Notes under the pieces: model-generated | Databases searched by the model: none | What the model was told of the DNA's origin: nothing | Seen by the model: the letters and a program-made list of their open reading frames with translations, nothing else | From: Spirochaetota bacterium | GTDB lineage: Bacteria; Spirochaetota; Brachyspiria; Brachyspirales; JACRPF01 | Length of the DNA: 64,000 nt | NCBI GenBank assembly: GCA_038043445.1 | Contig: JBBTBY010000097.1 | Location: 1-64,000, forward strand | Direction: 5' to 3' | Part shown: positions 28,385-43,900 of the stretch, in pieces | Layout: each line of letters opens with the position of its first letter | Numbering within the stretch: position 1 is the stretch's first letter | Translations under genes and position numbers: made by a program

Positions 28385-28770
28385 GATCGCTCCGGGTATG
28401 TATCAGTGTCATTATACAGCGATAGGGAAGCGGTGCAAGCATTCCCGATACGCATCGCGATTGACAGAAGCAAGTCCGTCGATATAATCATGCCCCTGGC
28501 AGGTTCACTGGAATGAAAATACTTCGCGTACTGATGATACTTGGCGTTGTTTTCACCGCGCTCTCATGCCTGCGTACGCCCGATCGCATTCATCGGCGGT
28601 GCTGGCTGGCGTTTCGGGCTGTAAGTGAAATATCTCTCCATGACCGTTCCATACGTATAATTGACATTTGAGTGCCGATTCTTACAACGGCATGTCGCGA
28701 TCTGCCATACCGTGCAGCGGTGTATTGTATATACTGACGGGAGAGAGTATCTTCGATGCAAGGAGCCATC
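28385..28770. other. Intergenic region M20 / heparinase-like gene
   Basis: This 386-bp region between divergent genes holds a possible 52-codon lipoprotein frame (28513-28671, listed separately), a TTGACA at about 28661, and the promoter-like TGTATATACTGA (28726-28737) shared with position 21461. Nothing else is recognisable. Confidence 0.5.
28513..28671 (+). CDS. Possible short lipoprotein or gene remnant (52 aa)
   Basis: The frame starts MKILRVLMILGVVFTALSCLRTP, a convincing lipoprotein signal with lipobox ALSC (Cys19). It then becomes Arg-rich (DRIHRRCWLAFRAVSEISLHDRSIRI) and stops at TGA 28669-28671. The start has only a weak Shine-Dalgarno. A good export signal followed by an unlikely mature part suggests the 5' end of a decayed lipoprotein gene rather than an intact one. 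No continuation could be recognised in other frames before the next gene. Confidence 0.3.
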   Translation: MKILRVLMILGVVFTALSCLRTPDRIHRRCWLAFRAVSEISLHDRSIRIIDI

Positions 28771-31700
28771 ATGCAGACACGATCGAAACGGTTCGCGGTC
28801 ATCATCCCGTGCATGCTTGCACTCAGTGCGATAGTGTTCCCTGTATCGCCCGTCTCGGACGGATACACTGTCATTCCGCCGGCGCCGGAGGGAAAGACAG
28901 CCGTGGCGAAAGCGCTTATCGATGCGCTTGATCTTTCGCGACCCGGTCTTGAGGCCGTTGTATCGCTTGCGGCCGCCGGGCGTTTTGACGAGGCGCTCGA
29001 TGCCTGGCGGGACATCACGGTCATGCGTCTGCGCGAACGGGACTTCGTTCAGTTCGGCTGGCATGACAGTACGACCAGCCCGAACTATTACCGCACTGCG
29101 GATATGCTTGCAGGATACATCACGCCGGAGGAGTACTATTCGCCGGTATCCAGTGTTCGGTTCATCGATATATGGGAGATGGCGGATGCGGGAAAGAAGC
29201 CGGTGTCGTGGTTCGTCGATGTGAATGCGGCGAAGTGGCCGACCGCGGGAATAGCAGCGCTTGATGCATCGGTGCGCTGGTCGCTTACGGGGTACGACAC
29301 ATTTGAGATATTCAAGACCTTCGTGTATCGCTTCTGGGTCACCGGGAGCAACGCCTACGCTGCGAAGTATATCGAGATCGCCGCGGATTTTGCGAGGAGC
29401 CACCGGCGCGGGTTCTGGCAGGCGTATGCGCAGAAGGAATTTTCCGATAAAGAAGTGAAGAACATATACCGTGCCGACTGGCGCGTCGGTGTGAATCAGC
29501 TCAACACCGGCTGGCGGCTTAAGAACAATATCAAGATGCTTGCCGGCATCGCGAAATGTCTCGGGAAGGATAAGGCCGCGGAATGGGCATCGGTGCTTCT
29601 CCCGGTGAACGGCACGCTCACGCGCGGAGAGATGTCGGTACTGTCATCAGAGCGGCTTGCCGAGATAGCGCTTTCGCTCATGTACGATCATCCGGGGCCG
29701 CTCATGCGCTTCTGCATAAAGCCGGGTGCTGTTCCCAATCAGCGTTCCGAGGGACTGCTTGCGCTCGTGTATCTTTCGGGGATATTCCCGGATTTCAGAC
29801 AGACGCCTGCGCTCAAAGATGCTATTACGCGCGGCTATGCTGAAATGCTCGACAGCAATTTTCTTCCGGACGGAGGCAGCCTTGAGCAGTCGTTCAATTA
29901 TAACGAACAGGATAAGGAAGGGCTTGAGAATATGGTGCGTTTCTTTCCGGGAATAAAGCCGCCGTTCGCCGCACGAGCGCTTCTGAAGGCGAGATCTCGC
30001 CGGGGTATCGATACGGGGCTTCGCACGCCGCTCGGCGGCCTCCCGCAGGTGGGGAACTCACACGACGTGCTCGGCAAGAACATATGGGTAAGCGATGATG
30101 CGAAAAAGCGTTACATCGAGTCGACCGCGATACGCCACAAGGAGATGCCGACACCAGAGCCGTTCCTCTCATGCGCTTTCCCCTACAGCGGATTCTATGC
30201 ACAGCGCACGGGATGGGGCATCGACGATCTCTATCTCTTCTTCATGAATGGACGTCCGCAGCGCGGCCATTCCATGCGGGACAATAATGCCGTACAGATG
30301 ACCGCGTACGGGCGCCAGCTCGTTGTCTGCGGCGGAAGTCCTACCTACGATGTGTTCAAGAGCGATGATGTGCGCGGTGCGCATTTTTTTCTGAGCGAGG
30401 CGTCCAGCCTCAAGAACAATACCGTCATCATCGACGGGCGCTCGCAGTCGAAGAACGCCGAGCGTGTTCTGAAAGGGTACAAGACACCGGCAGCGAGCCG
30501 ATGGCATACCTCGCCGAATTTCGACATCGTGGACGGCCTCTATGATCTCGGTTACGGCGATTTTGATATCAGGAAGAATACGGATATCAACATCGATATG
30601 TCGGTCTCGCATTATCGCTCTGTCGTCTTCGTGCGCGCGGCATCGCTTTGGATCATCGAGGACCGGATGATCAATAACGGTACGGCAGGGCATGAGTATT
30701 CACAGGTGTGGAATTTCCCGCCGCTCTGCAAAGACGATGTCTACGAACGGGAGATCGCCGGATTTGCCGAAGATCAATTCGTTCTTACGCCCGCAGAAAA
30801 GCATTTTTCCACGACTGACAAGGGCGGCCCCAACGTCGAGTTCAGGCATTTCGGACCGAAAGAGATCGAATACCGGAAATGGCACGGCGACAGGAAGCGC
30901 TGGCTCGGCTGGTATGCCGCGGGCATCGGCGATGCGCGGCCGGCACCCAATGTGCATGTATCCTGGAAAAGCGATGACAGCGATGTACTCATGACGATGA
31001 TGATACCCTTGCGCACGGGGCAGTCATCCCTCGTCAAGTCTCAGCGTTCGGCCGCCGCAGCGGCATCACGCGGATTCGATGCGGAACTTACCGACGGCAC
31101 GACGATACGATACCGCAGCGCATCTGCGCCGGCACCATTGGCGCTTGACAGGATATCGGGTACGGCAAAGAGCATACTCGTTGCAACAAAAGGCGGTATA
31201 TCAGGAATTGTGATCGGCTGCAGTTCTATGACATGGAATGGCGCCGCGGTCGACCGCACCGGTGATTTTGAATTTGTCGTCGTCGGGAACGAGATGCGCA
31301 CGACGCCGTTCTTTCTGCCGGAGGTCCCTGCCATTGCCGAACCGCGGCCGTTCGTGTCGATGGCGGATGCACCGAACGTGGTCATCGCGCCGCGTGCCGG
31401 CTACGATATACGGTATACCATCGATGGGTCGGAACCCACGATCTCATCGCCGTTCTATTCGGGAGCGTTCGCCATTGACCGGGAAGCCGTCGTGAAAGCG
31501 CGTTATTTCCGGGGAAACGATCCGCTGCCCCTTGTATCAGCAGTGGAATACAAGCCGTGTTCCTGGGTTGTACGTGATGCGGATGCCGCTCCGGAGACGG
31601 TGATCCCTCGGGGACTATCCTACCGCTTCATACGCTACGTCGGCGGCTATGCACGGCTTCATGAGATCATGATGCGCCCTGTAACCGAACGCGGAAGCAG

Positions 31701-32055
31701 CGAAGATCTTTCCCTTGACCGCTGGGCGAAAGAAAAGAGCTATTGTGTGATCTGGGAAGGCTCTATCCGCATACCGACGAGCGGTATATACACATTCCAT
31801 TGTACGGCGCCGAGCGGGGCGAACATCATCATTTATGATCCGGCGAAAGACCTTGTGATGCCGACGGCAGTGAGCCCGACGTATCTGAAGACGAACGATA
31901 CCGACAGCATTGCGCTCGCCGCCGGATATCATGCGGTACGCATAGAGATGATCAAGTTCAACAATAATCCGAACGTCTTCACGCTCGAGGTGGAGGGACC
32001 GAACATGCCGCGGCAGTCAGCGGCGTCAATGCTCTACCGGCGCATGGGTGAATAA
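28771..32055 (+). CDS. Exported heparinase II/III-like polysaccharide lyase with chitobiase-type and PA14-like C-terminal domains
   Basis: The start at 28771 (MQTRSKRFAVIIPCMLALSAIVF, with AAGGAG upstream) gives 1,094 residues with a signal peptide. An alpha-toroid region (about 40-470) includes LPDGGSLEQSFNYNEQD. The beta-sandwich has YSGFYAQRTGWGIDDLYLFFMNGRPQRGHSMRDNNAVQMTAYGRQLVV, the heparinase II/III signature in which His and Asp of GHSMRD replace the usual HxH-D. Near residue 880, GYDIRYTIDGSEPTISSPFYSG is a chitobiase C-terminal-like repeat. The last 130 residues resemble PA14 (IRIPTSGIYTFHCTAPSGANIIIYD). A uronic-acid polysaccharide is the likely target. It is not clearly in an operon. 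Confidence 0.8.
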   Translation: MQTRSKRFAVIIPCMLALSAIVFPVSPVSDGYTVIPPAPEGKTAVAKALIDALDLSRPGLEAVVSLAAAGRFDEALDAWRDITVMRLRERDFVQFGWHDSTTSPNYYRTADMLAGYITPEEYYSPVSSVRFIDIWEMADAGKKPVSWFVDVNAAKWPTAGIAALDASVRWSLTGYDTFEIFKTFVYRFWVTGSNAYAAKYIEIAADFARSHRRGFWQAYAQKEFSDKEVKNIYRADWRVGVNQLNTGWRLKNNIKMLAGIAKCLGKDKAAEWASVLLPVNGTLTRGEMSVLSSERLAEIALSLMYDHPGPLMRFCIKPGAVPNQRSEGLLALVYLSGIFPDFRQTPALKDAITRGYAEMLDSNFLPDGGSLEQSFNYNEQDKEGLENMVRFFPGIKPPFAARALLKARSRRGIDTGLRTPLGGLPQVGNSHDVLGKNIWVSDDAKKRYIESTAIRHKEMPTPEPFLSCAFPYSGFYAQRTGWGIDDLYLFFMNGRPQRGHSMRDNNAVQMTAYGRQLVVCGGSPTYDVFKSDDVRGAHFFLSEASSLKNNTVIIDGRSQSKNAERVLKGYKTPAASRWHTSPNFDIVDGLYDLGYGDFDIRKNTDINIDMSVSHYRSVVFVRAASLWIIEDRMINNGTAGHEYSQVWNFPPLCKDDVYEREIAGFAEDQFVLTPAEKHFSTTDKGGPNVEFRHFGPKEIEYRKWHGDRKRWLGWYAAGIGDARPAPNVHVSWKSDDSDVLMTMMIPLRTGQSSLVKSQRSAAAAASRGFDAELTDGTTIRYRSASAPAPLALDRISGTAKSILVATKGGISGIVIGCSSMTWNGAAVDRTGDFEFVVVGNEMRTTPFFLPEVPAIAEPRPFVSMADAPNVVIAPRAGYDIRYTIDGSEPTISSPFYSGAFAIDREAVVKARYFRGNDPLPLVSAVEYKPCSWVVRDADAAPETVIPRGLSYRFIRYVGGYARLHEIMMRPVTERGSSEDLSLDRWAKEKSYCVIWEGSIRIPTSGIYTFHCTAPSGANIIIYDPAKDLVMPTAVSPTYLKTNDTDSIALAAGYHAVRIEMIKFNNNPNVFTLEVEGPNMPRQSAASMLYRRMGE

Positions 32056-32134
32056 CGGCTGTTCGTATCTGCCAATATCCGCAGCTCACCAAGGAATTCG
32101 CTTCCCTCGTCGTCTAATATAACGAGGAGCTGAT

Positions 32135-33139
32135 ATGCGCACCCTAACCCTTCTGTGTCTGGCATTCACCGCGATGATCTGGCATGGATGTACGTCCAAT
32201 CCGGTGTCGCCGGTAGGGGAGAATACAGTTTCTGCAGTATCGGTCGGATATACGATAGTCGATACCGCCGTGCCAGCATCGGTATCGGTACGGACGGCGG
32301 TATGGTATCCCTCCGTATCGGCAGGATCGACCCATACGTATGGTACTGCGAACGGGGGCAACATCAGCGGTACGGTGGCATTGAACGGGAAAGTACGTCC
32401 GGGTTCATGGCCTATCGTCGTATTCTCGCACGGATTCTCCGGCGGCGGCGTGGGACAAACGGCGATATGCGAGGCGATAGCGCGTGAGGGCTATATCGTC
32501 GCAGCGCCCGATCACTCCGACGCGGTGCTCTGTGTGCGCATTGGCGGCACGGCAACAGGCTCGCTCAACGATGCGCTCTCCTATCTCGAAACGCATCCGT
32601 TCAACGACGGATCAACCTATTCCTATCGCGTTCGCGAGATCCGTGCGGTCGTCGATGCAATGCGTGGCCGCACGGACCTGCATGTCGATCCGGCGTTGTT
32701 GATCCTGTCGGGGCATTCCATGGGTGCGTGGACGGTGATGTCCGCCATGACGAACGGTATGATACCTTCGGCGATGCTGCTGTTCTCGATGGGAGAACTC
32801 AACTGGCTTTACGCCGGGCAGCGTTATTTCAACGCATCCGTGTTCACGGCAATGACATTTCCTACGATCTACTTCTACGGGAGCAATGAGCTCGCATCCG
32901 CAATTACAGCCGGGCGCACGAACGTGTATGCCGCCTTCTGTTACTATTATTCCCCCTCTCCGAGCTACGGCGTTGAAATTGCAGGGGGTAATCATTTCGT
33001 ATATAATACGGTACCGGTCGCCGGCGCGAGCGGGGGAACGACGGGGCAATTCGCCCTGATAAACGCTTCCGCAACAGCGTTCCTTACGCGGCATATTCGG
33101 GGAAGCACCGTGATCGTTCCGGCAAAAGTATCGAAGTGA
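32135..33139 (+). CDS. Lipoprotein alpha/beta hydrolase, PAF-acetylhydrolase-like (copy A1)
   Basis: The 334-residue precursor carries a lipoprotein signal, MRTLTLLCLAFTAMIWHGC, with Cys19 lipidated. The mature part matches platelet-activating-factor acetylhydrolase/dienelactone-hydrolase-type enzymes: VRTAVWYPS, WPIVVFSHGFSGGGVGQTAICEAIAREGYIVAAPDHSD, and the nucleophile elbow LSGHSMGAW with Ser195. The C-terminal His is in GGNHFVYN. It is clearly paralogous to the gene at 35635 (shared VFSHG-GGG and VRI blocks). GAGGAG precedes the ATG. It opens the operon and overlaps the sigma factor start (GTGA). Confidence 0.85.
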   Translation: MRTLTLLCLAFTAMIWHGCTSNPVSPVGENTVSAVSVGYTIVDTAVPASVSVRTAVWYPSVSAGSTHTYGTANGGNISGTVALNGKVRPGSWPIVVFSHGFSGGGVGQTAICEAIAREGYIVAAPDHSDAVLCVRIGGTATGSLNDALSYLETHPFNDGSTYSYRVREIRAVVDAMRGRTDLHVDPALLILSGHSMGAWTVMSAMTNGMIPSAMLLFSMGELNWLYAGQRYFNASVFTAMTFPTIYFYGSNELASAITAGRTNVYAAFCYYYSPSPSYGVEIAGGNHFVYNTVPVAGASGGTTGQFALINASATAFLTRHIRGSTVIVPAKVSK

Positions 33140-33705
33140 CCCATGGAGACCAATGCGTGCAGATGGACGGACGGGAGACTACGGATGATGCGATATCTGT
33201 CCAGGCGTTCCGCAGGGGCGATACCGCTGCCTTCACGACCATCGTCCATCGCTATCGCGAGCGGCTCTACGGGCTCTTGTACGGCATGCTCGGCTCACAT
33301 GATGCGGCGGACGATGCGCTCCAGGAGACATTCGTGAAAGCATATCGCAAGATGGATTCATTCCTCGGCAGGGCGAAGTTCTACACCTGGCTCTACCGCA
33401 TCGCAGTGAATACGGCGCGTGATCATCGCAAGCACGAGCGGCGCCGTTTGCGGCACGTCACATCGGCGCAAGCGGATATCGCCGAAAGCGACACCATGAA
33501 CGAACAGAGCGAACTTCGTGCGGACATCGAGGATATGCTTTCCTCGCTTCCCGAAGCACAGCGGCTGACGCTTCTGCTCGTGGCCCGCGACGGATTATCG
33601 CATCGCGAAGCGGCACGGATACAGGGGTGTTCGGAAGGTACGGTATCGTGGAGGATACATGAAGCGAGAAAAACGCTCAGGGGGAGGATGCATGGAACGA
33701 TATAG
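33136..33705 (+). CDS. ECF (group IV) RNA polymerase sigma factor
   Basis: The 189-residue protein has sigma region 2 (TTIVHRYRERLYGLLYGMLGSHDAADDALQETFVKAYRKMDSFLGRAKFYTWLYRIAVNTARDHRK, about 32-98) and region 4 (LSSLPEAQRLTLLLVARDGLSHREAARIQGCSEGTVSWRIHEARKTLRGRM). The GTG at 33136 overlaps the preceding stop by four bases; an in-frame ATG at 33163 is an alternative start. Sigma factor and anti-sigma factor genes normally adjoin, but here a hydrolase gene lies between them. The factor should direct transcription of this operon and perhaps others in response to an envelope signal. Confidence 0.93.
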   Translation: MTHGDQCVQMDGRETTDDAISVQAFRRGDTAAFTTIVHRYRERLYGLLYGMLGSHDAADDALQETFVKAYRKMDSFLGRAKFYTWLYRIAVNTARDHRKHERRRLRHVTSAQADIAESDTMNEQSELRADIEDMLSSLPEAQRLTLLLVARDGLSHREAARIQGCSEGTVSWRIHEARKTLRGRMHGTI

Positions 33706-34663
33706 AAGGACATCGATCATCACACGGTGCGCTGTTTTCTGTATAGCAGCCGCAGTATGTACCGGACATCTATTCGCCGCAGGCGGTGCACAGGTCTGCT
33801 CCATCGTCGTCGGCGATCTGAAACGCGAGTACACCATCTATCTTCCAACTGCGTATGACGGCGAAAAATCCCTTCCCGTCGTCATCATGTTCCACGGCGG
33901 GGGAGGCACGTCGAAAGCGGCTATGGCGGAGACAGGCTGGGATAAAAAAGCCGAGAAAGAAGGATTCATCGCCGTGTTCCCGCAGGCGACAGCGCCCGAT
34001 CCGACGCGTCCGGCGAGCTTCCGCGGCAATTCGGCGATATGGAATGACGGCTCAATGCGTTTTCATGCGGGGAAGGATGGTGTCGACGACATCGCCTATG
34101 TCAACGCCGTCATAGATGAGTTGCTATCGAAATTCAAAGCGGACCCGAAGCGCATCTGCGCGACAGGTTTCTCCAACGGCGCATCGATGACGTTCCGTAC
34201 CGGGCTCGAACTGTCCAGGCGCATCGCCGCCATCGCTCCCATGTCAGGAGCGCTTTGGATCACGAATGCCCCGATCGCGGAGCCGATCTCACTTCTTTAT
34301 ATTCACGGCACGGCCGATCCCATGAACCCCATCAACGGCGGCGTGCCGACGAGCGCGGGCGGGATAAAAATGGGCGAGGGAAAAGCGAAACCGCCGGTGA
34401 AGGATCATATCGCACGCTGGGCGGCGCTTATCGAATGTCAGCCATCGCCGATATCGACAGAAAGCGTGAACGGCGTGACGACACGGAAGTATGCACAGGG
34501 AAAAGGCGGCACCGCGATCGAATGGATAACCATCGATGACCTTGGGCATACGTGGCCGGGCGGAAAAAGCCTTTTGCCCGCGTCGATAGTCGGGAACATG
34601 ACGGACAAGATGATAGCGGTTGATGTGATCTGGGATTATTTCAAGCGGCATGTAAAACCCTGA
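33692..34663 (+). CDS. Exported PHB-depolymerase / feruloyl-esterase (LpqC) family hydrolase (copy B1)
   Basis: The start at 33692 (MERYRRTSIITRCAVFCIAAAVCTGHLFAAGG) follows GGGAGG and overlaps the sigma factor gene by 14 bp. The 323-residue protein has a signal peptide, then REYTIYLPTAYDGEKSLPVVIMFHGGGGTSKAAMAETGWDKKAEKEGFIAVFPQ, the oxyanion-hole region of the LpqC family. GFSNGASMT gives nucleophile Ser161. DDLGHTWPGG carries the catalytic His. It is the paralogue of the gene at 37764, with which it shares ETGWDKKAE-EGFIAVFP, WNDGS-RF-AG and GHTWPGGKSLLP. Family members cleave polyesters, acetylxylan or feruloyl esters; the substrate is open. Confidence 0.88.
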   Translation: MERYRRTSIITRCAVFCIAAAVCTGHLFAAGGAQVCSIVVGDLKREYTIYLPTAYDGEKSLPVVIMFHGGGGTSKAAMAETGWDKKAEKEGFIAVFPQATAPDPTRPASFRGNSAIWNDGSMRFHAGKDGVDDIAYVNAVIDELLSKFKADPKRICATGFSNGASMTFRTGLELSRRIAAIAPMSGALWITNAPIAEPISLLYIHGTADPMNPINGGVPTSAGGIKMGEGKAKPPVKDHIARWAALIECQPSPISTESVNGVTTRKYAQGKGGTAIEWITIDDLGHTWPGGKSLLPASIVGNMTDKMIAVDVIWDYFKRHVKP

Positions 34664-34676
34664 CGGGAGGTACACG

Positions 34677-35150
34677 ATGGAACATCTATCCGAAAGAAAA
34701 ATATCCGATCATATTGATGGGGCGCTCTCCACAAGCGAGTCGTCGCGTATTATGCGGCATTGCGAACACTGCGTATCGTGCAGAGCGCTTGTCGATGCGT
34801 ATCGGCGCATGAACGGGAGTATTGCATCGTCCGTTGCCGCACCGAAGGGATACTGGGCAACATTCGACGCGCGTCTTGCCGAGCGCCTCGCTGACGAGAA
34901 AAAACGCATCGTCTTCCCTCTGCGTGTGCGCATACCGCTCGCGATAGCTGCCGCGCTCCTGCTTACGGTCGGTATCGGCATCCCGCTCAGTATGGCGAAC
35001 GGCACCGCGGATGCCGATATGCTTTCGATAGGCATCGGCGGCGAGGAAGCTCTGGAGCCCATCGTCACGGCGATGGATGATGATGAGCGTTCGAATTTCC
35101 TTAGACGCATCGATGAAGAAATAGCCGTGATACGCGGGAGGCGCTCATGA
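34677..35150 (+). CDS. Zinc-finger anti-sigma factor (membrane-anchored)
   Basis: The 157-residue protein begins MEHLSERKISDHIDGALSTSESSRIMRHCEHCVSCRALVDAYRRM. The His-x3-Cys-x2-Cys arrangement in HCEHCVSC is the ZAS zinc-binding motif that holds ECF sigma factors inactive. One membrane segment follows (RIPLAIAAALLLTVGIGIPLSM, about 80-101) and a short periplasmic tail of about 55 acidic residues. It lies two genes after the sigma factor and overlaps the next lipoprotein gene by four bases (ATGA). GGGAGG is upstream. It is the expected partner of the sigma factor encoded at 33136. Confidence 0.88.
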   Translation: MEHLSERKISDHIDGALSTSESSRIMRHCEHCVSCRALVDAYRRMNGSIASSVAAPKGYWATFDARLAERLADEKKRIVFPLRVRIPLAIAAALLLTVGIGIPLSMANGTADADMLSIGIGGEEALEPIVTAMDDDERSNFLRRIDEEIAVIRGRRS

Positions 35151-35638
35151 TACGCATGGCATACCTACTATTTGTTATCGCGCTCGCAGCCTCGCTTCAT
35201 CTCGGCTGCGCACGTACGACTGCAAGCACGGGCGATATCGAAAAACGCATCATCGTGCTGTATCAGGAGCGGCTTACGCAGGAATGCCGCGTGAGCGAGA
35301 CACAGATGACGAACATCCGTTCATCCATCGAGCGTGTCATCGCGGCAAATCCGGTAACCTATGCGGATATCAATGCGAAAGAAAAAGCGCTTCGGGCGGC
35401 GCTTGCACGCTCCCCGTCCGACCCGGCTGCCGTTGAGACTGCCCTGGCCGGCTATAAAAAAGTCCGCGAACGATACCGCCTGCGCGGCGAGGAATTCAAC
35501 CGTGCCGTGGAAGAAGAGTTGACCGCCGAGCAAAAAGCGCGATTCGTGCTGTTCCAGAAGGATTTCTTCCGGCATTTGAGGTCGGTAGCGGCAAAAGCGA
35601 AAAAACAGAGAACGACCGCTGCTTCGGATGAGCCGTGA
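35147..35638 (+). CDS. Spy/CpxP-like periplasmic lipoprotein
   Basis: A 163-residue precursor with lipoprotein signal MIRMAYLLFVIALAASLHLGC (Cys21). The mature part is helical and highly charged, with ELTAEQKARFVLFQKDFF near the C-terminus resembling the LTxxQ motif of Spy, CpxP and zinc-resistance-associated chaperone-sensors. Position directly after an anti-sigma factor, with coupled translation (ATGA overlap on both sides), suggests it modulates that sensor. The family assignment is tentative because only one LTxxQ-like motif is visible. Confidence 0.6.
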   Translation: MIRMAYLLFVIALAASLHLGCARTTASTGDIEKRIIVLYQERLTQECRVSETQMTNIRSSIERVIAANPVTYADINAKEKALRAALARSPSDPAAVETALAGYKKVRERYRLRGEEFNRAVEEELTAEQKARFVLFQKDFFRHLRSVAAKAKKQRTTAASDEP

Positions 35639-36726
35639 GCACACAGAACGGAACATCCCGCAGACGTTTTGCGTTCGTCGCAGCATCCCTCGCATGGGTC
35701 GTGGTGCATGCATTGTATGCCGGAACGCCCGCAGCTGCCGGTGAAGTACCGCGGATGAATATCGGTTATACCGTGCTTGATTTTAAATACAAAAGCGGCA
35801 CCGAGGAAAAAACCGTCACCACAGCCGTATGGTATCCCACGGATGCGCGGACAAAAATACATGTGTACGGCGGGAGCACCAGCGGGGAGCTCGCCGTTGA
35901 CGGAGCACTGAAACACGGCGGACCGTATCCGCTCCTGGTATTCTCCCATGGCTATGGCGGCGGCGGCCTGACCGCTGTTTTTCTCACCGAGGAACTTGCC
36001 GCACGCGGCTGGATTGTAGTATCGCCCGACTATAACGACCGTCACAGCGCAGTGCGCATCAGAAAGGGACAGCAGGGGTTCGACCGCGCTGGTCTTTTCT
36101 CACACGCGCGGGAGATTGCCGATTCGACCATCGATGACCGCAATGCGTATCGATACCGCTACGATGAGCTTCGCACCGTGCTCAATGGCATTATCGCATC
36201 CCCTGGGTTCGGACCGAGCATCGACACGGGGAAGATCGCGCTCGGTGGGCACTCGTTCGGCGGATATACGGCGCTCGGGCTCTGCGGAACGTTGCCGGAA
36301 CTGAAGGACAGCCGTATCAAAGCGGTAGTGCTTTTCTCCACCGGTACCGGCACATGCCTCTATACGCCGGAGGAAATGGCCGCGGTTAAGATGCCGGTAA
36401 TGCTTTTCCTCGGTGAGCGTGAGCGCGATGAGAAGCGCGGGGAGAGGACCATGGCGGACCTCGCCGATGCCGCGTATCGCTGTTTTCCGGCAACGAAATA
36501 TTATCTCGAGGTCAAAGGGGCGAGCCATTTTTCGTTCAATAACAGGTTCAGTGATAATACGGGGGCGCAGCGCATGAGCGGCACAGAGACGGAATTCGGC
36601 GTGATACGGAAATACTCCGTTGCCTTCCTCGAGCGGCATATACTCGGGGATGAGCACGCCGTTGTGATACTGTCAGGGAACGACACACGTCTGACGCGCT
36701 ACGAGCATCGTGAAACGGATCGGTAA
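35635..36726 (+). CDS. Exported alpha/beta hydrolase, PAF-acetylhydrolase-like (copy A2)
   Basis: A 363-residue protein starting at GTG 35635, overlapping the previous stop by four bases. The N-terminus MSTQNGTSRRRFAFVAASLAWVVVHALYAGTPAAAGE is a signal peptide. TTAVWYPTDARTKIHVYGG, YPLLVFSHGYGGGGLTAVFLTEELAARGWIVVSPDYNDRHSAVRI and the elbow LGGHSFGGYTAL (Ser207) match the copy at 32135. The His is in KGASHFSFN. Unlike copy A1 no lipobox is evident, so it is probably soluble in the periplasm or secreted. Paralogous duplication within one operon is the notable feature. Confidence 0.85.
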   Translation: MSTQNGTSRRRFAFVAASLAWVVVHALYAGTPAAAGEVPRMNIGYTVLDFKYKSGTEEKTVTTAVWYPTDARTKIHVYGGSTSGELAVDGALKHGGPYPLLVFSHGYGGGGLTAVFLTEELAARGWIVVSPDYNDRHSAVRIRKGQQGFDRAGLFSHAREIADSTIDDRNAYRYRYDELRTVLNGIIASPGFGPSIDTGKIALGGHSFGGYTALGLCGTLPELKDSRIKAVVLFSTGTGTCLYTPEEMAAVKMPVMLFLGERERDEKRGERTMADLADAAYRCFPATKYYLEVKGASHFSFNNRFSDNTGAQRMSGTETEFGVIRKYSVAFLERHILGDEHAVVILSGNDTRLTRYEHRETDR

Positions 36727-36761
36727 AAAATTTATCTCTATTCATGCAAAGGAGGCCGTCG

Positions 36762-37760
36762 ATGGAACGAGCAACAGCAATTCTGCTTTTCACGATCGTG
36801 ACCGCTGGGATACTCTGTGCCGAGGACAGGAGTACCGCTCGCGCGCGGTACAATGAAGCTATTGCCGTCAAACTCAGCTGGGAGATCGTTACGGTTCCAG
36901 TCGGAAACGCGGAGCGCAAACTTATCTGGAAAGGGCCGAAGCAGTGGACGAAAGGTGCGATCATCGTCATGCATGGCGGGAGCGGCACCGCTGTCGACTG
37001 GTGTTACGCGACAAAGACCGGCATAGCGAGCATCGATGCATCCATGCAGGCGCAGGTCGCTTTCAGCCGCGATGCGATAGAGCAGGGTTTTGCCGTGTTC
37101 TCACTCGATTCAAGTACCGACCTCGTCACCGACGACAAGGGACTTCCGTGCGGGAAGCGCTTCGATGCCACCGTTGTCGACGGCCGTGAGAACATCGATC
37201 TTCCGTTCATCGAAAAGGTGATACGCGAGGTGATGACATCAAAGCGCCCGAAGGGGAGCAGTCCTTCCGTTTTCATCACCGGCGAATCGACGGGCGGTTT
37301 CATGACCGTGCGTGCATCCACGCATTTCGACGGTCTCGTCACCGCATTTGCGCCCGGCGCAGCCTGCGATCCGTACGGCACTTATTTCGATGCGTCAGTG
37401 GATACCGGGCGGGAAGCGCGCGGTGTGGGCATAGACCGGGACACGGGAAAGCAGATCACTCAGGATGGCGCAGGCGGAGCACCTGACGCATCATATCCGA
37501 ACGAAAAGAAATGGGAAACGATGAACCCTGCGAAGAAGCCGCCGTTCATCGGGATACATCATCGCGATGACGGCATCGTCGATATCACCTGTCATCAGAA
37601 ACTCGTGCGGCAGCTTGTTGCGCACGGATATGCTATGGAAGAGGATTTTATCATTCCAAGCGTCGGCAAGAAGAACGTTCTCGCGCATCTGTGGCAGGCG
37701 GAGTACAATCCGCGCATACTCGCGTTCTTCTCAAAATATGCGGCGTCGCATGGGGAATGA
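36762..37760 (+). CDS. Exported alpha/beta hydrolase of unassigned subfamily
   Basis: The start at 36762 (MERATAILLFTIVTAGILCAED) has AAAGGAGG seven bases upstream; a longer frame from 36744 was rejected. The 332-residue protein has a signal peptide, the oxyanion region KGAIIVMHGGSGTAVDWCY and the nucleophile elbow ITGESTGGFM with Ser176. IGIHHRDDGIVDITCHQKLVRQL supplies the acid-containing loop and VLAHLWQ a likely catalytic His. It is not close to the A or B paralogue pairs. It lies 35 bp after copy A2 and three bases before copy B2, so it belongs to the same operon. Substrate unknown. Confidence 0.75.
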   Translation: MERATAILLFTIVTAGILCAEDRSTARARYNEAIAVKLSWEIVTVPVGNAERKLIWKGPKQWTKGAIIVMHGGSGTAVDWCYATKTGIASIDASMQAQVAFSRDAIEQGFAVFSLDSSTDLVTDDKGLPCGKRFDATVVDGRENIDLPFIEKVIREVMTSKRPKGSSPSVFITGESTGGFMTVRASTHFDGLVTAFAPGAACDPYGTYFDASVDTGREARGVGIDRDTGKQITQDGAGGAPDASYPNEKKWETMNPAKKPPFIGIHHRDDGIVDITCHQKLVRQLVAHGYAMEEDFIIPSVGKKNVLAHLWQAEYNPRILAFFSKYAASHGE

Positions 37761-37763
37761 TTG

Positions 37764-38684
37764 ATGCTGCGTATTGTCATACTGTTCGCAAGCGCCGCTT
37801 TTCTGTTCGGCGCTGGTCTCGAGAAAAGGACTATCCGTGTCGGCGCGATGACACGGGAATATCTCATCTATCTGCCGTCCGTATACAATGGGGAAAAACC
37901 GCTTGCTGTCGTCATCATGCTCCACGGCGGCGGCGGAACAGGAGAAGCCGCGCGCATCGAAACCGGCTGGGATAAAAAAGCGGAACGTGAGGGATTCATC
38001 GCCGTGTTCCCGGAAGGGAGCCGCCCCCATCCGGGAAAACCTGCAAAATTCGCGGGAAATCCGCAGGGATGGAATGACGGCTCGGGTCGGTTCTACGCCG
38101 GGGAGAACAACATCGATGATGTTTCATTCATCGGTACGCTCATCGACGAATTGGTACGCATCTTCGCTGCGGATATAAATCGTATATACATCACCGGATT
38201 CTCGAACGGTTCATCGCTCACCTACCGGCTCGGCATAGAACTCGCGGAAAAGATCGCCGCGGTAGCACCCGTCGCGTCTAGCGGCCTTCGCGTGAATACA
38301 GCGCCGAGAACGAAGGCGCCGCCGCTTATCAGCATACAAGGTTTAGCGGATCCGCGTAATCCGCCCGACGGCGGGGCGATAGCGCATCACGATTTCGGTC
38401 TGCCGGCCGACCCTCGGCCGCCGATCATCGACTCGATCAGACGTTATGCCGCGCATGCGGGATGCGGTGCCGAAGCGAAAACAATCGTGAACACGAACGG
38501 CGTTACCGCGATACGATTCACCGGCGGCGGCTCACAGGAAGTTGTGTCCTATACTATCGACGACATGGGCCACACCTGGCCGGGGGGACGATCTCTGCTG
38601 CCGAGCTCGGTCGTCGGGGCTATGACAAAGAAAATGAACGCTACCGATGTTCTATGGGATTTTTTCATGCTGCATGCCCGATGA
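37764..38684 (+). CDS. Exported PHB-depolymerase / feruloyl-esterase (LpqC) family hydrolase (copy B2)
   Basis: Starts at ATG 37764 (MLRIVILFASAAFLFGAGLEKR), three bases after the preceding stop; 306 residues including the signal peptide. REYLIYLPSVYNGEKPLAVVIMLHGGGGTGEAARIETGWDKKAEREGFIAVFPEGSRPHPG, then ITGFSNGSSLTYR with nucleophile Ser147 and DDMGHTWPGGRSLLPSSVVGAMT with the catalytic His. Alignment by eye to copy B1 is continuous over the full length, so the two arose by duplication. It is the last hydrolase of the ECF-associated operon. Confidence 0.88.
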   Translation: MLRIVILFASAAFLFGAGLEKRTIRVGAMTREYLIYLPSVYNGEKPLAVVIMLHGGGGTGEAARIETGWDKKAEREGFIAVFPEGSRPHPGKPAKFAGNPQGWNDGSGRFYAGENNIDDVSFIGTLIDELVRIFAADINRIYITGFSNGSSLTYRLGIELAEKIAAVAPVASSGLRVNTAPRTKAPPLISIQGLADPRNPPDGGAIAHHDFGLPADPRPPIIDSIRRYAAHAGCGAEAKTIVNTNGVTAIRFTGGGSQEVVSYTIDDMGHTWPGGRSLLPSSVVGAMTKKMNATDVLWDFFMLHAR

Positions 38685-38778
38685 CAATTGTTGCGGGGAT
38701 GCATACACAGGGATGCGCATACACTTGTTATTACGCCGGATAGAGCTACAATTACCTGTCATCGAAGGAGGTATTCTC

Positions 38779-39240
38779 ATGAGGCTCATGCTCGCCGTCA
38801 TCGTATTTTCGGGATGCCTTGCCGCTCAGAACGCCGACTGGAAAAGCACCGCGGAACAGAACTATCAGGATGAAGTCAACGAGAAAATGGTCATCCTGAA
38901 CAAGGGCCGCGCGCGTGAGGTCGGGGCATCGAAATACCCCGTCATCCTCGAGCTCGTTGAAAAGCAGAACAAGTATCTGACCAAGGCCACGAACATGCTT
39001 ACGATGTTCCGTGAAAAAGTGGACCGCGATGAGAAACAGCCGGCACAGCAGGTGTGGCTCAATTATCAGTACGTCGACCTATTGACCGATGTGCTCGATC
39101 AGGCGGTACGCGCGGGCATACTGCTTGAGACCACGAAGGCGGGCAAGAACGATACGTTCACGGCGATGAACGCAAAGGCGTTCGAGTCGCTCAAGACCGC
39201 TGCCGGTGTATACGAGGCCATCGTATCGACGATGCGGTAA
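38779..39240 (+). CDS. Small helical lipoprotein of unknown function
   Basis: Start at 38779 was chosen for GGAGG seven bases upstream and the lipoprotein signal MRLMLAVIVFSGC (Cys13). The mature 140 residues are predicted helical and charged (YQDEVNEKMVILNKGRAREVGASKYPVILELVEKQNKYLTKATNMLTMFREKVDRDEKQ). I recognise no domain. It lies 94 bp after the last hydrolase and may be the end of that operon or separate. The 138 bp that follow, up to 39378, contain no gene. Confidence 0.6.
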   Translation: MRLMLAVIVFSGCLAAQNADWKSTAEQNYQDEVNEKMVILNKGRAREVGASKYPVILELVEKQNKYLTKATNMLTMFREKVDRDEKQPAQQVWLNYQYVDLLTDVLDQAVRAGILLETTKAGKNDTFTAMNAKAFESLKTAAGVYEAIVSTMR

Positions 39241-39378
39241 AACGCTGCCATGCCGGCGCACCTTCGTCCGGACCGCATGGTGAAAATTGTATATCATTTT
39301 CCTGAATAGTTATAAGGACATGGTCGACCGAAATGGCGTATACTCGATACTGCCGTAGAAGATCCCCTGGGGGCCCGA

Positions 39379-40884
39379 ATGAAGCATGAACGTATGCTCT
39401 GCATCCCGATGCTGTCAGCCATGTTCGCCGCTTCGGTGATGGCGTACGGCGAGGCGGCTCTCTCTGCACGGTATATCCGCGTCGAGCAGGCGAACGGCGT
39501 TCTCGCGCTTGCCGAGGTGGAAGTGTTCTCCGGCACGGCGAATATCGCGCATAAAGGCACGCCGTCGCAGTCATCGACCGCATACGGCGGCGAGGCGGCG
39601 CGGGCAGTTGACGGCAATACGGCCGGATCATGGGCGGGCAATTCCATCACCCACACATCCGATGCGACCAATGCGGTGAGCGCATGGTGGGAGGTCGATC
39701 TCGGAAAGGATACGGTCATCGATTGTATACGCGTGTGGAACCGCACCGACCCCTGCTGCAGCGGAAGGCTCAAGGGCGCGTCGGTCATCGTATTAAGCAG
39801 CGCACGTGCGGTACTCGCAAAAGCCATTATCAATGATACCGATGATACACCGTTCATCAAATCGTTCTCAGCGCTCGGCGCGTCCAATGCCCTGCGCGGT
39901 GTTGTCGATGAATATCCTTCCGTCACACTGACCAACGGGTCCGTTGAACTTATCGTGTATCTCCCCGATGCGGAAAAAGGTTTCGGCCGCGGACCGCGTT
40001 TCGACCGTTCTGCGATGGTGGGGCGCGCGGGCTATCGCGGGCATACGTGGTTCGGGCAATGGCTGCCGGGGAAGCATGATCCCGTTGATGCGAACGCGAG
40101 CATCGGCATGGGCGGCGATTTCGGCACCGGGCAGGCGGGGGCATACGGTGCGCTCGGTTATGACGAGGCGAAACCGGGCGAGACCTTCGTGCGCATCGGC
40201 GTGGGCGAACTTCGTAAGCCGATGAAGCCGGAGTACATAGAATACAATTCGAACGCGGTGTTCGGCTACCGCATCAGTTTCCGCTACACAATCGTGCGCG
40301 TATTCCCCTGGGAGATACAGCTGGCCGGGCGCTTTATCGAGTTCCGGCAGGATGTCCGCGACGTATGCGGCTACAGTTTCCGATATACACGCCGCATCGA
40401 GCTCACGCCGGATGCGCCGGGTTTCGTGTCGAAGTGCATGCTTGAGAATACCGGCGGCAAACGGATAATACAGTCGTACTATAATCACAATTTCATCATG
40501 ATAGACGGAAAGCCCATCGGCCCTGACTATCGCCTCACATTCGGTTTTACGCCGCAGCTGAAAGATGTGAAGAAAGATGCGGCAGCACTGTTCAGCGGGC
40601 GCACTCTTTCCTTTTCGCGGCTGCTTCAGGCGAATGAAAGCGCCGGGTATCTCCTTACCGGGTCCGATGCGTCCGCTGCCCACAGCGCCGCTGATATCTA
40701 TAATTCCCGTACGAAGGCGGGGCTGCGGATGACGATGGACGCGCCGCCGGTCATCTATAATCTCTACATCACGCCGAAAGTGATATGTCCTGAACCGATT
40801 ATCACCATCGATGTCCCGCCGGGCGGGAAAAAGGAATGGCAGACGCGATATGAATTCCGCGCCGACAGCCCGCTTGGAAAATAG
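39379..40884 (+). CDS. Exported F5/8-type-C (discoidin) domain protein with mutarotase-like domain
   Basis: The 501-residue protein has a signal peptide (MKHERMLCIPMLSAMFAASVMAYGEA). Residues 30-150 form a fucolectin-type F5/8 C carbohydrate-binding module (IAHKGTPSQSSTAYGGEAARAVDGNTAGSWAGNSITHT, WWEVDLGKDTVIDCIRVWNR). The remaining 330 residues look like an aldose-1-epimerase/galactose-mutarotase fold (VELIVYLPDAEKGFGRGPRFDRSAMVGRAGYRGHTWFG, CMLENTGGKRIIQSYYNHNFIMIDG). Enzymatic activity is uncertain. It lies 38 bp before the 1,689-residue protein, probably in one transcript, suggesting that both act on one glycan. Confidence 0.75.
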   Translation: MKHERMLCIPMLSAMFAASVMAYGEAALSARYIRVEQANGVLALAEVEVFSGTANIAHKGTPSQSSTAYGGEAARAVDGNTAGSWAGNSITHTSDATNAVSAWWEVDLGKDTVIDCIRVWNRTDPCCSGRLKGASVIVLSSARAVLAKAIINDTDDTPFIKSFSALGASNALRGVVDEYPSVTLTNGSVELIVYLPDAEKGFGRGPRFDRSAMVGRAGYRGHTWFGQWLPGKHDPVDANASIGMGGDFGTGQAGAYGALGYDEAKPGETFVRIGVGELRKPMKPEYIEYNSNAVFGYRISFRYTIVRVFPWEIQLAGRFIEFRQDVRDVCGYSFRYTRRIELTPDAPGFVSKCMLENTGGKRIIQSYYNHNFIMIDGKPIGPDYRLTFGFTPQLKDVKKDAAALFSGRTLSFSRLLQANESAGYLLTGSDASAAHSAADIYNSRTKAGLRMTMDAPPVIYNLYITPKVICPEPIITIDVPPGGKKEWQTRYEFRADSPLGK

Positions 40885-40922
40885 ATAGACCGAATACTGA
40901 GCACTACCCAATGGAGGAACAT

Positions 40923-43900
40923 ATGCGCATCGGGAAATATCCTCTGGCCAAGGTCATGGTACTACTCGTGTCCGCGGCGTTCGCGCACGGTGCGCTCATC
41001 GGCGATGGAACAAGCTGGTCATCGCTCTGGAAGCGTATAGAAAAACCCGCGTTCACCTTCGATATGAACCGCACCGGCTCGGGCAGCCTCTATCTTACCG
41101 ATGATGCCGAGCGCAAAATTATCGGCCAGAGCCCCGCGCCCATGTTCATCGTTGATGGAAAATCAGGAAGACGCAATTTCATCGGCGACGGTACGGGCGG
41201 CTGGACGGAAGTGAAGGGCGATGTGACCGCTGAACGCGTATCGGTGAACGGCATCATCGAAGGCATTGATATAGCGCAGACGATAACGGTTTCCGACAGC
41301 GGTCTTCGCATGAGCGCGGTCATGACACTTCGTCCCGGCCAAGCGAAGGTACGGAGCTTCTATCTCAATGCAGGTTTTCACCGCCGCGCCGAGGGCATTC
41401 CCTTTAAAGGCGAGACGATGACAGGTGCCGCGTTCTCAGGCGATCTCTGCAGACCGTTCGAGACCATACGCGATGTGAAATGGTTCGAGGTTGAAACAAA
41501 AACGAAGTCGACGGTGCGCTACGAATTCATCAAGGCTGCCCGTGTCGATCTTCAGCGCTATCAGGCGAGCGATCCGAACTATCCGGTGGCCGCCGAGTTC
41601 AATGTATTTCCCGACGGCGCTGCGCCGAGCGCCGAGGTCGTGCCTGAGAAGGCGATGTCCTATGAGATGCTTGTTACCGTCGTTGCGAAAGGCAAGCCCG
41701 TTGCTTCGACAGTGCCGGCGCGCACCGAATATGTATACGACAGGGACCTCCCTGATTTCGGCATCGGCGTATACCCGCTCGCGGAACAGACATGGCGTTC
41801 GAAGACGATGATATATCCCGAAGCAGTGAGCGACAAGGACCGCGTCTGGTCAGGCGATGATTTCTTCACCTGGGAATACGGCGCACCGCTCGATTTTTCG
41901 AAGGACGCTATCGCGCTGTACGGCTACGCCGAGGGCGCATACACGGCGGGCGGCGGAGCACTGACCGCAGCTACCGGTCCCAAGGGTTTTACGTTCGGGT
42001 TCGGTACCAAAGTGGGGGTAACGGATACGCCCGGCATACGCTACGGCCTCAACTGGGTGCATGCGATGAAGGATAATATTCGCCTGCGTATGGTGATCGA
42101 GCAGGACAGGGAAACCGAGTGGCGTTTTCTCACGGCGAATTGGCGCGGATACGAGGAGTCAAAGCGCTTCAAGATATTCGGTACCGGCAGACAGGAGTTC
42201 GAGGTCGATGCCGGTCTCGTGCGTGTTGCGCTTTCCGGATACGCATCGGTCACCGGACTGCGTTTCGAATGCCTGACACCGAATGCGTCGATATCGATAC
42301 GCGAGATGAAGCTTGCGCCGTCGTCGGCGAACGTCTATTTCCGAAAAAAGATAGCACTGCTCTCAAAGCCGGTGTATGCGCCTTTGTCCCTGCGCGATCA
42401 TGAGTGCTTCGATCTAGTCATCAACGGCACGACGGTGCTCTCCGGTGCGAAGGTATATCCTGTCGGTGCGATGCGCCACATCGATATCGCGCAGTATCTC
42501 ATCGCCGGAGAGAATACGATATGCTATCGCCGTGAATTCCTCATGTGGTCGGGCGATGCCAACAAGACCTGCCTCATTGAGTGTGCCGCCGTCGGGCGCG
42601 ACGGAGCGGTCACGCGCATAATCGGCGACGAAACATGGAAATGCAGTCTCAGGGCTGAAAGTGCCTGGACGGACGCATCGTTCGATGATGCGTCATGGAA
42701 GACGCCGAAGACCGAACGCGCGGCGGTCACAAAGCTCGCCGACTACAAGACCGAAGTGTCCGAGGGATATGAGCCAAAGCATATGGGCATGCTCGACAGC
42801 AAGCCTTCCGACCGGATGTATCCGGTTTTCGAACGTACTGCAGCGCCGGCATTCAAACTGCGCATACCCGCCGGCATCGCCTTCACACCGGAGGTCATCG
42901 GTACGGTATACAAGGCCGGCACCGCTCTTGAGGCGGAGCGTATCAGCGTATCCTCTTTCGCTGCCCGCGGCGACTTCCTCATCAGTACGGCCGCGTTCCG
43001 AACGCGCACACCGGGACCGTACCGCATCGAATGGACGCTCCTGTCGAACAAACAGACGATAGAGCGCAAACGAGAGGAGCTTATCATCACCGGGCCTGTC
43101 GTGCAGGACACGGTATCGCTTGCGGATTTCGAGCGCACGCTCACCGAACGCATGAAACGCGTCTGGAGCGTGGAGTGCACGGCAGCTGGGAGCGAGACCG
43201 ATTTTATCGATCATGCCGGCATGTACAATGCGCCGAAGATGAACAAGGGGCGGGTGACAACGAACGGCACGCTCGTATACCGCGAGACGGGGTCGGGCAC
43301 CTGGGATTATTTTGCCTACCGTATGCGCGGACTTGCCGCGGGCGAACCGCATATCGTCGAGGTCATCGTTCCCGATGATGATGACCGCTATATTTATTCC
43401 GGCGTCATGCAGGCAGACCCGATAGTCTATCCCTGGAATCTCCCCGGATTCGGACGTTTCGCTTCTACGGGTGCGTGTTTTACCGGCGGGCGGTATCCGC
43501 TTACCGGAAAAACGAGAGCGATACGCTATGTGCATTGGCCGCGCGCTGCAAGTGAAGCGGTCGTGGTGATGAGCGGAAGGACGGACAGCCGAGGGGCGGC
43601 ATGCCGCATCATCGTCTACCGTATCGAGGGCGACCTCCCCGCACTCGCCGTGCCCGCCACCGGACGGCTTTTCGGGGATCACCTTGAACGCATCAGCCTC
43701 ATATCGCCCACGGTCGGCTGTGAGAATGCGCTTGAGAACGATCCGTTCCATGCATTGAACGGGCACCGCGACGCCTGGTATCACTGGTACCGCATGTTCG
43801 AGCGCAAGATAAAGCTCTACCGTTTCCTCGGCAAGAACATGGCCATCGAGGGACTCTACATGTATTCCGATGCGCATTATCCGAGCGAACGTGCGAGCAT

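Follow-up and report, generated by a model that had tools for sequence, protein, structure and literature searches.

An ECF sigma/ZAS/Spy-like trio interleaved with five predicted exported alpha/beta-hydrolases in a spirochaete genome: a possible lineage-specific esterase operon

Introduction

ZAS-type anti-sigma factors keep ECF sigma factors inactive, and in most membrane-bound members the zinc is probably structural (PMC4598750, PMC7406223). Autoregulation is common to most ECF operons (PMC8103513). In the CnrYXH system of Cupriavidus metallidurans, an ECF sigma factor is combined with a transmembrane anti-sigma factor and with periplasmic CnrX, which serves as the sensor for the anti-sigma factor (PMC4598750). 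The sigV-rsiV-oatA-yrhK operon of B. subtilis is an autoregulated ECF/anti-sigma operon that includes an envelope-modifying acyl enzyme (PMC8287880). Our literature search returned no named system that joins ECF/ZAS regulators with esterases.

Here we describe a locus in which ECF/ZAS regulators and five hydrolase genes are interleaved. It lies in a stretch of 64,000 nucleotides (the window; contig C97) from a 5.1 Mb draft genome of a Spirochaetota bacterium, assembled in 178 contigs. We put at roughly one in two the probability that the cluster is a lineage-specific, autoregulated ECF operon which makes exported acyl-esterases in response to an envelope or substrate signal.

Results

We found all eight genes of the cluster on one strand (+), and checking of the coordinates confirmed the order, gaps and overlaps given in an earlier, sequence-only reading of this DNA. 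The first gene, hydrolase A1 (32135-33139), encodes a PAF-AH-like alpha/beta hydrolase that is predicted to be exported and is possibly a lipoprotein (weak lipobox, WHGC). The ECF sigma gene (33163-33705; start codon ambiguous between 33136, 33157 and 33163) overlaps by 14 bp hydrolase B1 (33692-34663), a CE1/PHB-depolymerase-like esterase with an ATG start and GGGGGAGG upstream. B1 is followed after 13 bp by the gene for the ZAS-type transmembrane anti-sigma factor (34677-35150), so the two regulators are indeed split by a hydrolase, as had been noted. Overlaps of 4 bp connect the ZAS gene to that of a Spy/Metal_resist-like lipoprotein (35147-35638), and the latter to hydrolase A2 (35635-36726; PAF-AH-like, GTG start). 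Hydrolase U (36762-37760), a divergent alpha/beta hydrolase and distant relative of the B type with a GESTGG nucleophile motif, and the B-type hydrolase B2 (37764-38684) complete the set; the remaining gaps are 3-35 bp. A small exported helical protein (38779-39240, +) is encoded 94 bp downstream of B2. A codon-usage gene caller recovered all nine genes (with a shorter start for some of them) and called no opposite-strand genes across the cluster. The GC content of the cluster was even (56-58%). From the gene overlaps, which support it well, we infer that regulators and enzymes share one transcript, as had been proposed before.

In a draft genome of this kind, B1 might have been misjoined between the sigma and anti-sigma genes during assembly. 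We rejected this explanation as highly improbable: B1 runs into the sigma gene in an intact frame and stops just short of the ZAS gene, every other junction is tight as well, and there is no step in GC.

Profile searches with Pfam and NCBIfam agreed with the gene families assigned in the sequence-only reading. The sigma factor is short and has both domains (Sigma70_r2, 2e-18; Sigma70_r4_2, 7e-13; TIGR02937, 99 bits). The anti-sigma factor matched zf-HC2 with 24-25 bits against a cut-off of 22.2; it contains an H-x3-C-x2-C arrangement (HCEHCVSC), one apparent TM segment and a short outer tail. The third protein has a clear lipobox (LGC) and scored below the PF13801 Metal_resist cut-off (18.6 bits vs 29.2, E 0.002), so that the label Spy-like refers to gene position and weak similarity only. 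It keeps the same company as in other ECF-ZAS-Spy trios. The regulatory unit is a trio of ECF sigma factor, ZAS and Spy/Metal_resist-like protein, and the Spy-like gene, underplayed in the sequence-only reading, is part of the regulatory core.

Trios of this type were also found without hydrolases. The order Spy-like, ECF, ZAS occurs on another contig of the same genome (C23), and the one family-mate among the genomes compared (G001) has both this order (contig C7) and the order ECF, ZAS, Spy-like (contig C10), in each case with no hydrolases. Members of the same order carry compact Spy-like, ECF, ZAS trios (e.g. L035, L033, L003-L012). Like the window, these encode an ECF sigma factor, a zinc-finger transmembrane anti-sigma factor and an exported Spy-like protein together, but their sigma and anti-sigma genes are adjacent, usually with a 4-bp overlap, and are not accompanied by hydrolases, whereas the window's are split. 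In the two nearest genomes zf-HC2 gave seven matches, six of them directly after an ECF gene and only the window's ZAS separated from it, by B1, suggesting that a standard trio was opened and enlarged. The idea of a single functional unit had been made to depend on such sigma/anti-sigma pairs not occurring elsewhere without hydrolases. Related pairs do occur, but the best matches of the window sigma elsewhere have 28-37% identity to it and cannot be called clear orthologues; they therefore leave the specific operon unrefuted. In a maximum-likelihood tree of ECF factors the window sigma was not placed with support, the nearest row being the sigma of an ECF-ZAS-Spy set of the family-mate (36%).

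A different arrangement was seen on contig C4 of the family-mate (L144, 8459-12057), where an ECF gene is followed by a short protein in the anti-sigma position and then by exported proteins. The short protein carries a C-terminal glycogen-binding domain (AMPK1_CBM/CBM48).

Turning to the enzymes, A1 and A2 matched PF03403 PAF-AH (4e-10 and 2e-10; 39-40 bits against a cut-off of 20, with ~60 residues matched). B1 and B2 matched NF050058, the type-1 PHA-scl depolymerase family (2e-43 and 3e-39), with 148.7 and 135 bits, i.e. 1.3 and 15 bits under the cut-off of 150. Hydrolase U gave weak matches to NF050058 and NF050057 (5e-6 and 2e-5) and no Pfam match. The lipase-box serine and a candidate catalytic histidine were present in all five hydrolases, and the acid residue is Asp in B1, B2 and U and, by alignment, apparently Glu in A1 and A2. 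The B1 triad (S161, D209, H286) was invariant in an alignment of eight homologues, and B1 and B2 have the motifs GFSNG and GHTWPGG. In A1 the nucleophile serine lies in GHSMG and the histidine in GGNHF. Broken triads, which had been named as evidence against one functional unit, were therefore not found, with a reservation for the glutamate in A1 and A2. B1 and B2 are 50% identical and A1 and A2 31%, so that the five genes look like the products of two old duplications together with one singleton.

The nearest solved structures to the B type are feruloyl esterases and a PHB-depolymerase-family esterase. For the A type, the nearest solved relatives are PAF-AH, a Streptomyces ferulic acid esterase and PET hydrolases/cutinases; this was found by sequence and, for A2, also by the predicted fold, which is of moderate confidence. 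Structure prediction for hydrolase U gave a pLDDT of 34 and no usable model.

Relatives of the hydrolases were found away from sigma genes. The orthologue of hydrolase U in the family-mate (83% identical) stands alone beside an unrelated monooxygenase-like gene, and a B-type relative in that genome (55%) also lacks sigma genes nearby. B1 as a single query found no match in the genome contigs; a B profile built from eight sequences found 80 loci, with hits in many other phyla, and matched 66 of 393 sampled Spirochaetota genomes. The A family had only distant relatives in the 393 Spirochaetota genomes. Outside the window we compared ~106 distinct B-type loci, 80 of them with 7 kb flanks or to the contig end and the Spirochaetota ones with 1.5 kb. 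The order sigma, hydrolase, anti-sigma was seen in none. Sigma-like genes, detected with an ECF profile made here, were near the hydrolase at only four of these loci and in no case as a co-directional neighbour, and a motif scan found no ZAS-like genes near any of them. Tandem B pairs occur at two loci (L069, L081), and in a planctomycete (L045, 1-1670) an A-like gene overlaps a B-type gene by 4 bp, all with no sigma factor, showing that esterases of this kind also cluster where there is none. The A-like protein of the planctomycete has GHYIG instead of GxSxG, and the nucleophile serine is seemingly absent. At a Verrucomicrobium locus (L048, 7031-9208) a trio of ECF factor, short TM protein and Spy-like protein adjoins a B-type hydrolase, but the hydrolase is convergent with the trio and the zinc motif is missing. 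A single case of this kind in ~106 loci was judged informally to be within chance adjacency, and the locus was set aside.

The sequence-only reading had called for a search for a conserved sigma-hydrolase-antisigma set, and this search found the layout in one genome only. As sigma/anti-sigma pairs occur without hydrolases and hydrolases without sigma factors, the cluster is not a conserved functional unit, though the idea of one unit is plausible. The layout looks like a lineage-specific build of known parts, in a combination that no other genome searched appears to have. Elsewhere the switch is ordinary, and so are most of the enzymes; the cluster does not look like a new class of system.

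These distributions would also fit another explanation, that the trio is a standard ECF-ZAS-Spy switch for envelope stress, with its true regulon at other places in the genome, and that the esterases are read-through passengers and not what is sensed. It would be in keeping with trios free of hydrolases in this genome and its relatives, with hydrolases free of sigma factors, and with the restriction of the layout to one genome. However, it requires much coincidental capture: the cluster holds five exported esterases that are functionally alike and fall into three types, and one of these stands between the sigma and anti-sigma genes. It also leaves unexplained why the lipase-box serine and candidate histidine were kept in every one. 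We regard it as possible, though on the unlikely side.

A possible ECF-type promoter, GGAATT-N13-GTCTAA (32093-32117, +), was found 17 bp before A1 when the region upstream of 32135 was inspected, as the sequence-only reading had suggested. The pattern, which was chosen after viewing the region, matches nowhere else in the window (0.01 matches expected), and its spacer of 13 nt vs ~16 is about 3 nt below the E. coli sigma-E type. With this non-canonical spacing the ECF-like site is a weak candidate. Across the genome the ECF-like pattern had four matches. One of them, on contig C13 of the same genome (L156, ~45.1-45.7 kb), has the canonical sigma-E-like form GGAACT-N16-GTCTAA and lies ~50 bp upstream of a further exported Spy/LTXXQ-like gene, which, judged by this site, is a candidate member of an ECF regulon outside the window. 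Upstream of A1, a gene for a 1099-aa heparinase-like protein ends 80 bp before it, so a more distant promoter, read by a different sigma factor, could transcribe the operon. At the other end, a sigma70-like consensus match (38725-38752, +), of a kind no more frequent in the region than expected by chance, precedes the small exported protein. This gene is probably a separate transcript outside the operon. The small protein matched no family, and a search of 61 genomes found it in its own genome but in none of the 60 related ones.

The cluster is flanked on the same strand by genes for large exported proteins (28756-32055 and 39379-45992) with heparinase II/III-like, F5/8C and malectin domains, and also CHB_HEX_C and PA14. 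The heparinase-like, F5/8C and malectin neighbours point to work on polysaccharide, which would fit feruloyl or acetyl esterases better than degradation of a storage polyester. They also raise the question of whether the cluster is only part of a larger polysaccharide-degradation locus, reaching from the heparinase-like to the malectin gene (28756-45992), with the sigma factor as local regulator of the whole. The genes form a same-strand run over this distance with edge gaps of 80 and 139 bp, the flanking domains are of a suitable kind, and feruloylated or acetylated polysaccharide is the substrate of the esterase relatives. The promoter-like match and the 94-bp gap after B2 speak against a continuous unit, and we consider this extension doubtful.

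Discussion

We favour the reading of the cluster as an autoregulated esterase operon. In the proposed mechanism, the ECF sigma factor would be held at the membrane by the one-TM zinc-finger anti-sigma factor, with the Spy/Metal_resist-like lipoprotein outside as a likely signal-sensing or signal-tuning partner. By analogy with CnrX, the lipoprotein may act as the outer sensor or buffer and the ZAS as the switch. An envelope or substrate signal would loosen the anti-sigma factor, by proteolysis or conformational change, and the freed sigma factor would transcribe its own operon and thereby the five exported hydrolases. These may strip acyl or hydroxycinnamoyl esters, most likely from an acylated polysaccharide or lipid. 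A trio that already existed would have gained hydrolase genes on either side and within it, in part through duplication (B1/B2, A1/A2).

This proposal is supported by the overlaps, coherent codon usage, even GC, the ZAS motif, the recurrent trios and the families and residues of the hydrolases. It also draws on the solved esterase relatives, the polysaccharide-type flanks, the ECF-like site before A1, the prevalence of autoregulation among ECF operons and the sigV precedent. Against it stand the occurrence in a single genome, the absence of conserved hydrolase linkage with this sigma factor and the weakness of the promoter candidate with its 13-nt spacer. Control of the operon by the sigma factor, and an ester substrate as the signal, are inferences. 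The cluster might even be a closed ester-sensing circuit: the hydrolases would make or remove a ligand of the Spy-like protein or anti-sigma factor, and gene order would set the dosage of enzymes and regulators. This would be an undescribed, dedicated ester-responsive class of ECF system; we think it distinctly improbable.

If the sigma control is real, this uncultured spirochaete lineage would have an ECF switch coupled to exported esterases, and a target enzyme placed between sigma and anti-sigma could shift their translational ratio. The cluster also offers a small, concrete set of candidate enzymes for feruloyl, acetyl or polyester hydrolysis. Its wider value is limited by the layout being found in one genome.

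Among known enzymes, B1 and B2 belong with the type-1 PHA depolymerases and the CE1 feruloyl and acetylxylan esterases, with which they share GFSNG and GHTWPGG, and they differ from the type-1 PHA-scl depolymerases in scoring just below the NCBIfam cut-off. A1 and A2 resemble PAF-acetylhydrolase/Lp-PLA2 and the Streptomyces cinnamoneus ferulic acid esterase in sequence, and A2 in predicted fold, but they are exported bacterial proteins with ~20% identity to these and Glu at the acid position.

Among known regulators, CnrYXH is like the window trio in combining an ECF sigma factor, a transmembrane anti-sigma factor and an outer (periplasmic) protein. It differs in that CnrY is not described as a ZAS, the signal is Ni/Co and the output is metal efflux, and the likeness to CnrX is limited by the sub-threshold Metal_resist score of the Spy-like protein. 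RsiV is a lysozyme receptor and an anti-sigma factor of another type than ZAS. The sigV operon has one acetyltransferase placed after the regulators, whereas the window has five hydrolases interleaved with them.
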